Source: Pirellulaceae bacterium (lineage in GTDB: Bacteria > Planctomycetota > Planctomycetia > Pirellulales > Pirellulaceae). From it: a stretch of DNA of 64,000 nt. Shown here one piece after another: positions 12,735-14,953 of this stretch. The notes under the pieces were generated by a model. It was not told the DNA's origin. It saw only the letters and a program-made list of their open reading frames with translations, and did no database searches. The DNA lies in contig JADYZV010000152.1 of the NCBI GenBank assembly GCA_020852965.1, positions 1-64,000 on the forward strand. Direction: 5' to 3'. Positions within the stretch are counted from its first letter, which is position 1, and every line of letters begins with the position of its first letter. The position numbers and the translations under genes are program-made.

Positions 12735-12768
12735 CGCGGGATGGAGCAGCCCGGTAGCTCGCGAGGCT

Positions 12769-13496
12769 TAAAGAAAAAGCTCTATAGGTGATTTGAAAAT
12801 GAACACGAATCACGTCGGAGACATTGCCGAACAGGCCGTTATTCTCCGCAGCCTTGAATTTGGCTGGGGAGTTTGTTGACCGATAGGTAATGGTTTAGCC
12901 TATGATTTGATCCTGGACGTTAATTCCACTTTAGTGAGAGTTCAGGTCAAGTCGGTGTGGCTGGATGAGGTTTCTGGCAATTTCGTGACGGACAATCGGC
13001 GTACGAAAACCAATCGTCGCCAAATGGTTCGTGACAACTATGGAATTAGAGACTTTGATTTTGCGGTGGTGTATCTGCCAATAATCAAAGTGTTTTACAT
13101 AATTCCAGTGGAGTTATTTATTGAATACGGCAGTTCGATCTCTTTTGTCGAGAATGAAAAACGGCAAAGGAGACCACGCTCCGCAGCGAATCGTAACTGC
13201 TGGCAACTTATAGAGAAATGGGCTGCACAGATGGAAACGTCTGTGTGAACACTTGTCAAATTCGGGGAACCCTCTAGCGATGGCAATCCCGAGCCAAGCT
13301 TGAAGTTTGGAGTTGCAAGACTCTGGAGTTCAGGAAGGTGTAGAGACTTAATGGCAGGCCCCTCGCGGTTGAATTGATTAGAAGCTTAGCTTCGAATGAA
13401 CACAATCGCAGGGTGAAGAGAAAGTCCAGACCACAAACATTGATTTGGCCAAGTTGGCCGAAGCTGATTGATGGCGGCGAAAGCCGAAGTGGTAAG
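12769..13496 (+). ncRNA. Group I intron (IC3/Azoarcus-like core) in tRNA-fMet
   Basis: The 728-nt insert follows a U (12768) and ends in G (13496), the standard group I boundaries. The 3' half has a recognisable core: TGTCAAATTCGGGGAA (13254-13269) and GAGCCAAGCTT (13291-13301) resemble the P3/P4/P6 strands of the Azoarcus tRNA-Ile intron, as I recall that sequence. GGTGTAGAGACTT (13337-13349) and GGTGAAGAGAAAGTCC (13412-13427) resemble its P7 region, with GACTT and AAGTC able to pair. A GNRA-capped hairpin (GGC-GAAA-GCC) lies near 13475-13485. I could not draw a canonical P1 with a U-G pair at the 5' splice site. The endonuclease reading frame fills the part before the core. Confidence 0.85.
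12799..13248 (+). pseudogene. Intron-encoded PD-(D/E)XK homing endonuclease, broken by an in-frame TGA
   Basis: The frame opens at ATG 12799 (MNTNHVGDIAEQAVILRSLE), meets TGA at 12877-12879, then continues in the same frame to a stop at 13246-13248, 149 codons in all. The parts match the intron-associated PD-(D/E)XK pattern: an N-terminal (H/K)-x-GDxAE helix, YDLILD giving the catalytic Asp, and VRVQVKS giving the x-K of the active site. This is the fold of I-Ssp6803I, the endonuclease of the cyanobacterial tRNA-fMet intron. The single stop falls just before PIGNGLAYDL, between helix 1 and the active site. Only one base change separates it from an intact gene. A shorter product from TTG 12907 would keep the active-site residues but lose the first helix. 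Confidence 0.75.
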
Positions 13497-13584
13497 CATA
13501 ACCTCGAGGTCGTCGGTTCGAATCCGGCTCCCGCAACTTCTCTGCTTTGTTAGGAAACTGACCAGCGGTAGGTTATTCGATTAA

Positions 13585-14460: not shown

Positions 14461-14532
14461 GGACTGGTAGCTGAGACGGTATAGCGGCGGTCTGAAGAAC
14501 CGCAGAGGAGGGTTCGAGCACCTCCCAGTCCA
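14461..14532 (+). tRNA. Divergent tRNA-Phe (GAA)
   Basis: Acceptor GGACTGG (14461-14467) pairs perfectly with CCAGTCC (14525-14531), with discriminator A and no encoded CCA. The anticodon stem GCGGT/ACCGC is perfect, with loop CTGAAGA and anticodon GAA at 14494-14496. The D stem is short (GCT/AGC). The T arm, GAGGG-TTCGAGC-ACCTC, has one G-A mismatch. The departures from the usual bacterial tRNA-Phe suggest an accessory or decaying copy. Confidence 0.65.
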
Positions 14533-14582
14533 CTGGATGCGCACTTGGCAAAAACTCACACGAGTCACTGATAAATACAAAT

Positions 14583-14650
14583 GGGCTTGCCGACGGGTCG
14601 GCGCTTTGACTTGCACTCAAGGCTTCAGGGTTCAACTCCCTGCAGGTCCA
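14583..14650 (+). tRNA. Divergent tRNA-Ala (TGC)
   Basis: Acceptor GGGCTTG (14583-14589) pairs with CAGGTCC (14643-14649) and keeps the G3-U70 wobble that AlaRS recognises. The T arm CAGGG-TTCAACT-CCCTG is perfect. The anticodon arm is TTTGA-CTTGCAC-TCAAG with anticodon TGC. The D region is only about 14 nt, a 5-6 bp hairpin with hardly any loop, so the molecule is 68 nt and clearly non-standard. Confidence 0.58.
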
Positions 14651-14700
14651 CTGACATGACATCCTGACTGTTATGAAACATATTCTGTCAATTCCGGTGG

Positions 14701-14767
14701 GTCCTGTGTTGGTACGGGAAGGCGACTGTTAATCGCCCAGATGTAGGTTCGATTCCTGACATGGACA
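14701..14767 (+). tRNA. Degenerate tRNA-Asn (GTT)
   Basis: The anticodon arm GGCGA-CTGTTAA-TCGCC is perfect and gives GTT (Asn). GTAGGTTCGATTCCT is T-arm-like but its outer pairs fail. The acceptor GTCCTGT pairs with ACA-T-GGAC only if one T is bulged. The D region is shortened to about 13 nt (GTTGGTACGGGAA). It is best read as a decayed or strongly reduced tRNA. Confidence 0.45.
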
Positions 14768-14780
14768 CTGATTTGAACAT

Positions 14781-14854
14781 GGCTCGGTGCGATGTTGGTA
14801 TTTGCAGTCAGCCCCTCAAGCTGGCGCTCACCGGTTCGATTCCGGTCCGAGTCA
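14781..14854 (+). tRNA. tRNA-Glu-like (CTC)
   Basis: Acceptor GGCTCGG (14781-14787) pairs with CCGAGTC (14847-14853) with one G-U, and discriminator A follows. The T arm ACCGG-TTCGATT-CCGGT is perfect. The anticodon stem TCAGC/GCTGG is complete with loop CCCTCAA, so positions 34-36 read CTC (Glu), but position 33 is C instead of the near-universal U. Identity is therefore uncertain. Confidence 0.5.
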
Positions 14855-14863
14855 CTCTTCAAT

Positions 14864-14946
14864 CGCGATGTGGTGGAACCGGTAGACACGCGAAGCTCAG
14901 AACGTCGTGTCATTGAGGCGTAGGAGATCGACTCTCCTCTTCGTGA
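14864..14946 (+). tRNA. Divergent tRNA-Leu (CAG)
   Basis: This 83-nt class II tRNA has acceptor CGCGATG (14864-14870) pairing with CTTCGTG (14939-14945) with one U-U mismatch. The typical Leu D arm is GGTGGAACCGGTAGACACG. The anticodon stem is CGAAG/CGTCG (one A-G mismatch) with loop CTCAGAA giving anticodon CAG, and a long variable arm (TGTCATTGAGGCGT) follows. The T arm AGGAG-ATCGACT-CTCCT has a perfect stem but ATC instead of TTC in the loop. Confidence 0.6.
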
Positions 14947-14953
14947 CTTACAT

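Follow-up and report, generated by a model that had tools for sequence, protein, structure and literature searches.

The DNA analysed here (the window, 64,000 nt of a Pirellulaceae bacterium contig) carries an initiator tRNA gene whose anticodon loop appears to be interrupted by a group I intron. We consider it very probable that this is a tRNA-fMet intron of the Synechocystis family in a chromosomal initiator gene, which would have arrived by homing, would splice by means of an AUGGGC guide, has an endonuclease gene that is probably decaying, and is probably past its mobile phase. The features on which this reading is built are listed below.

12735–12768, plus strand: tRNA-fMet 5' exon, C1 to U33, identical to intact same-genus genes
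12769–13496, plus strand: predicted group I intron of 728 nt between U33 and C34, with a terminal G at 13496 (RF00028, ARAGORN exons)
12799–13248, plus strand: frame of 149 codons for a PD-(D/E)XK homing endonuclease, interrupted by a single TGA (PF11645, PDB 2ost)
12877–12879, plus strand: the TGA that interrupts the endonuclease frame, at its codon 27 (read from the sequence)
13200–13449, plus strand: RF00028 covariance-model match, 65.8 bits, E 1.8e-14
13218–13223, plus strand: internal guide sequence AUGGGC, forming P1 with G31-C32-U33 and P10 with C34-A35-U36
13225–13246, plus strand: P2 hairpin with a GAAA loop (consensus structure of 26 introns)
13252–13358, plus strand: P3, strands 13252–13257 and 13353–13358 around P4-P6 (26-intron consensus; helix names assigned here)
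13345–13426, plus strand: P7, strands 13345–13349 and 13422–13426 (by eye from conserved columns; a pseudoknot, outside the RNAalifold output)
13497–13536, plus strand: tRNA-fMet 3' exon, C34 to A73, CCA not encoded, identical to intact same-genus genes

When joined, the two exons were folded by ARAGORN into a tRNA-Met(cat) with C1 and A72 unpaired, and the fold presents the hallmarks of an initiator: the C1/A72 mismatch, a CAU anticodon and A11-U24. Bacterial initiator tRNAs usually have three consecutive G-C pairs adjoining the anticodon loop; the stem here (CGAGG/CCUCG) has two, with A29-U41 in place of the first of the three. As this deviation is common to the intact tRNA-fMet genes of the same genus, it is a lineage trait. 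In the unspliced window the split gene was not called by ARAGORN, and allowing introns of up to 1000 nt recovered it with the anticodon misplaced.

An uninterrupted gene with 97–100% identity to the joined exons over 73 or 74 nt was detected by BLAST in 7 of 14 further genomes from the genus (G001, G004, G005, G006, G007, G009 and G010); the match was 100% over 73 nt in G001 and G007 and over 74/74 nt in G005. The tRNA-fMet gene is cut by a contig end in G002, G003, G008, G011 and G012, and a BLAST search with the joined tRNA found no clear copy in G013 and G014. Because the relatives' intact genes match the joined exons in this way, an empty-site allele exists in the genus and equals the predicted spliced product. 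The preliminary description of this DNA had given the exon boundaries, 728 nt apart, correctly to the base, and its proposal that joining U33 to C34 yields an initiator tRNA with a CAU anticodon and C1/A72 agrees with both the ARAGORN fold and the identity to the intact genes.

The insert was the single match to RF00028 at E <= 0.001 in the whole 8.37-Mb assembly. The AUGGGC guide forms all three P1 pairs, the one at the 5' splice site being U.G, and all three P10 pairs; none of 50 shuffles equalled the window. Of 77 tRNA-fMet introns (76 loci, introduced below, and the window), 65 were scored for the guide, the 12 without the core motif being dropped: P1 was complete (3/3) in 63, P1 and P10 were both complete in 41, and a terminal G was present in all 65, window included. 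Since shuffled stretches often equal single rows in this test (a mean of 19% for fMet introns and 36% for elongator introns), the support from guide pairing rests on the whole set. An RNAalifold consensus of 26 fMet introns, window included, gave helices that were read as P2, P3, P4, P5, P6, P8 and P9, with changes on both sides in 32 of its 49 pairs. Furthermore, across 99 core columns in which at least 90% of 60 other fMet introns agree, the window deviates at only 4 (16 of the 77, without the motif used, were left out of this comparison). Taken together, the covariance model, the guide pairing, the conserved core and the intronless genes of relatives support a group I intron in the anticodon loop of an initiator tRNA, as the preliminary description had proposed. 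The covariance-model search that it had suggested gave a score well over the gathering threshold (65.8 versus 50 bits), and the insert does end in G (13496) after the U33 of exon 1, as it had stated. Splicing of the intron is predicted from this anatomy.

Whereas the preliminary description was right about an intron in tRNA-fMet, it overlooked the endonuclease frame at 12799–13248. This frame sits in the P1 loop and extends across the guide sequence and P2, and therefore its last residues are written by ribozyme sequence; in the alignment, the C-terminus of 2ost ends in similar residues. Read through its stop, the frame matches Pfam PF11645 (E 1.1e-39), and the portion past the stop matches PDB 2ost (E 4.4e-36), which we take to be I-Ssp6803I, the endonuclease of the Synechocystis tRNA-fMet intron. 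This damaged gene of the 2ost type identifies the intron as a member of the Synechocystis tRNA-fMet family. E11, D36, Q49 and K51, at what are presumably the catalytic positions of the enzyme, are kept.

Among 80 relatives of the endonuclease, five have broken frames, whereas the other 75 run uninterrupted for 125 codons or more. In a tree of 77 proteins, the window's included (four badly broken rows were left out), the window has the longest end branch (1.85, median 0.36). Its end branch for the ribozyme core is also long (0.51, median 0.11), so part of the endonuclease distance is evidently overall divergence; selection can be another source. Given the TGA within its frame (codon 27) and a branch longer than any other in the tree, the endonuclease is probably decaying, whereas the ribozyme has been kept. 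A single TGA could nevertheless be a sequencing error, and if it were an error of sequencing or assembly, the endonuclease might be alive and the intron still mobile. The frame has only this one lesion and is otherwise open to its end, the presumed catalytic positions are kept, and intact homologues occupy the same site elsewhere in Planctomycetota; however, the branch length argues against a live enzyme, and a restart at the TTG of 12907 would drop positions 11 and 36. We therefore regard a live endonuclease as unlikely, though as an alternative to be taken seriously, and prefer the reading of a decaying one.

According to the preferred reading, the guide at 13218–13223 would hold exon-1 G31-C32-U33 and then exon-2 C34-A35-U36 in the pre-tRNA; guanosine would attack after U33, and the freed U33 would attack after the terminal G of the intron, leaving a normal initiator tRNA, as its anatomy suggests. 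The family to which the intron belongs suggests how it may have come: its PD-(D/E)XK endonuclease would have cleaved a tRNA-fMet gene that lacked the intron, and the intron would have been copied in during repair. With a stop now standing in the endonuclease frame and a long branch, the intron is probably no longer mobile; it would be retained because the tRNA is indispensable and the intron can still remove itself from it. All three steps, splicing, homing and the loss of the endonuclease, are inferred from sequence.

The draft assembly (8.37 Mb, 199 contigs, completeness 99.5%, contamination 3.6%) holds 60 tRNA-model matches, and the stretches holding these were folded. Other CAU tRNAs were an elongator Met gene on contig C18, an Ile2- or Met-like gene on contig C11, a gene on the 3.1-kb contig C5 that was read by eye as U1/U72, and, inside a dense tRNA array on contig C72, an initiator-like gene whose D stem also resembles that of an initiator and whose U1 and C72 are mismatched. 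With the joined tRNA as BLAST query, the matches listed for this genome comprised its two exons, the C72 gene (83%) and others that were short or weak. No canonical initiator tRNA gene besides the split one was thus found in the 99.5%-complete draft, and the split gene must therefore splice unless another tRNA serves; given the C72 gene, it may not be the sole source of initiator. It is nonetheless improbable that splicing has been lost and that the cell relies on a different initiator tRNA, such as that of the C72 gene, in place of a dead split gene: contig C72 is probably a prophage or related element, since its frames look integrase-, replicative-helicase- and small-terminase-like (judged by eye), the exons of the split gene are identical to the relatives' intact genes, and the ribozyme core is conserved.

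Several further observations concern tRNA-like sequences in these genomes. The array on contig C72 (locus L220, positions 1–1300) comprises ten ARAGORN tRNA genes, the initiator-like one included. About 0.9 kb past the split gene, at 14461–14947 of the window, lies a run of odd tRNA-like genes (Phe, Ala, Glu and Leu by ARAGORN), 99 bp of which are 81% identical to the C72 array; this run is perhaps a remnant of a C72-like element. G005 and G009 match the fMet query a second time, at 82%. Additional copies of the 3' part only of tRNA-fMet (query positions 30–33 to 72–74) are found in G042, G018 and G007, with a distance to the full gene of about 5 to 34 kb in G018 and G042; these look like attachment-site duplications by elements integrating at the gene.

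As the assembly is a draft of 199 contigs with 3.6% contamination, the split gene might in principle derive from another organism. Moreover, identity to the same-genus genomes G005 and G009 ends 16 bp upstream of exon 1, and synteny consequently lends little support. The gene lies, however, on a contig of 79.7 kb, its exons are identical to same-genus genes, and approximately 300 bp past the tRNA are 85% identical to the same-genus G011. A contaminant contig is thus very improbable, and we treat the split gene as belonging to this genome.

Group I introns in related genomes were surveyed with RF00028 under strict filters, by which weak matches were lost. In the order sample, 26 of 396 genomes gave 28 matches: one in tRNA-fMet (the window), 10 in elongator tRNA-Met genes and another 17 within or next to 23S rRNA (placed by landmark motifs, with locus L102 placed by eye). 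In the phylum sample, 12 of 392 genomes gave 13 matches: two in tRNA-fMet (this genome and G659), three in tRNA-Arg (by eye), three with 23S landmarks and five others. The endonuclease of G659 is identical over 143 residues to that of Planctomycetota PMV_2.27. The intron-bearing tRNA-Arg genes lie at about 1480–1770 of L225 (reverse complement) and about 1470–1860 of L233 and L234, with anticodons read by eye as UCU and CCU.

The elongator tRNA-Met introns (L080, L081, L082, L092, L093, L094, L095, L096, L099 and L104) are inserted at the same U33|C34 position. Nine of the ten could be scored, seven of them with a complete P1 (3/3), mostly with a GGU-type guide, which suits A31 of the elongator exon; a full P1 was not found by script in L081 and L096. 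With such introns in 10 of 396 genomes of the order, a local origin from elongator tRNA-Met was considered but is not supported by the core tree, where the ten group together (100/99) and both the window and the other fMet introns fall outside their clade; in addition, at 242–430 nt they are apparently too short for a 450-nt frame plus core. We thus hold an elongator origin to be extremely improbable and retain the assignment to the fMet family. Within that family, descent through planctomycetes alone was neither established nor rejected by the trees: constraining the window with the planctomycete loci L145 and L166 gave p-AU values of 0.517 (protein) and 0.242 (core), and L109, from PMV_2.27, was placed away from the window in the protein tree.

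Relatives of the endonuclease were sought in the genomes of 84,980 species with peptide patterns from a two-sequence alignment, which yielded 88 stretches. In 76 of the best 80 of these 88, the tRNA-fMet gene is interrupted at the same U33/C34 site; the exon pair was not found in L126, L149, L158 and L176. By record name, the 76 loci represent 15 phyla, among them Cyanobacteriota with 23 loci, Bacteroidota with 22 and Planctomycetota with 3, plus four loci whose phylum is unassigned. Many records are metagenome bins, so that individual labels may be in error, but the set includes named strains of Nostoc, Cylindrospermum, Spirosoma and Arcicella. The family is therefore not restricted to cyanobacteria. 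The preliminary description had mentioned cyanobacterial introns of this kind; its remark that it knew of none described in Planctomycetota needs revising, given same-site introns in many phyla, other Planctomycetota included. A PMC literature search found, among the matches listed, no paper on a tRNA-fMet intron in Planctomycetota and none on its spread across many phyla. Mapped onto the protein tree, the labels for phylum require 24 changes (minimum 15, shuffled mean 42.7); labels so clustered and yet mixed are in keeping with transfer between phyla, and are no proof of it.

The endonuclease gene occupies two main positions. It lies within the intron in 44 of the 76 loci and downstream of exon 2 on the same strand in 31, while in one (L144) it is upstream of exon 1. 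The 31 free-standing loci (L110–L112, L114–L119, L121, L123, L124, L127, L128, L139, L140, L148, L150–L152, L156, L159–L162, L164, L175, L181, L185, L187 and L188) belong to cyanobacteria and Bacteroidota and have short tRNA-fMet introns of 240–358 nt; in 28 of them, 88–173 nt separate the start of exon 2 from that of the endonuclease gene, and the frame of this gene is broken in L181, L185, L187 and L188. The two architectures need 7 changes among 72 tree rows. As for vectors, tblastn with the L109 endonuclease matched none of 72,556 plasmid records and 9 of 50,697 phage records (30–44% identity over 38–81% of the query), and a scan of viral contigs gave one partial match at 41%; no close vector was found in these phage, plasmid and viral-contig collections. 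We lean slightly towards a broader proposal, in which the fMet intron and its PD-(D/E)XK endonuclease would constitute a pan-bacterial homing element with two architectures and several switches between them, seen here at the end of its cycle, with the endonuclease dead and the ribozyme retained since the only chromosomal initiator gene depends on it.

Because proteins start with tRNA-fMet, an intron in this tRNA would tie translation initiation to a ribozyme, unless the cell can use another initiator gene. Of wider interest are the broad distribution of the family and its two endonuclease positions: the same intron at the same site in many phyla, with open and broken frames, is a natural series that could be used to test the homing cycle, in which an intron is gained, spreads, loses its endonuclease and becomes fixed, as well as the formation of mobile introns by capture of a neighbouring endonuclease, in one indispensable gene.

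Among known systems, the tRNA-fMet intron of Synechocystis sp. PCC 6803 with I-Ssp6803I resembles the window intron in having the same host tRNA and a 2ost-homologous endonuclease. An available excerpt of PMC1995217 gives the Synechocystis intron as 655 nt, with a 150-aa PD-(D/E)XK enzyme. The insertion site of its Synechocystis salina relative (L177, 655 nt) is that of the window. In contrast to the Synechocystis intron, the window intron is 728 nt long, has an endonuclease that is broken by one stop and strongly diverged, and resides in a planctomycete host. Open endonuclease frames are found inside introns at the same site in PMV_2.27 (L109; L108 has the same protein), Gemmataceae PMV_8.19 (L145) and NC_groundwater_620 (L166); the read-through protein of the window is 58% identical to that of L108 and 61% to that of L145, but its own frame is not open. 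The elongator tRNA-Met introns of related planctomycetes share the U33|C34 position and the terminal G and likewise have a guide, of GGU type, that fits their own exon (A31); they differ in their separate clade and their shorter length (242–430 nt). The Azoarcus group IC3 intron, which lies in a different tRNA, tRNA-Ile(CAU), and is not known to have a reading frame, appears similar in its core motifs and its CAU-facing guide. The window intron is thus best described as a new host for, and an apparently decaying example of, a known intron family.
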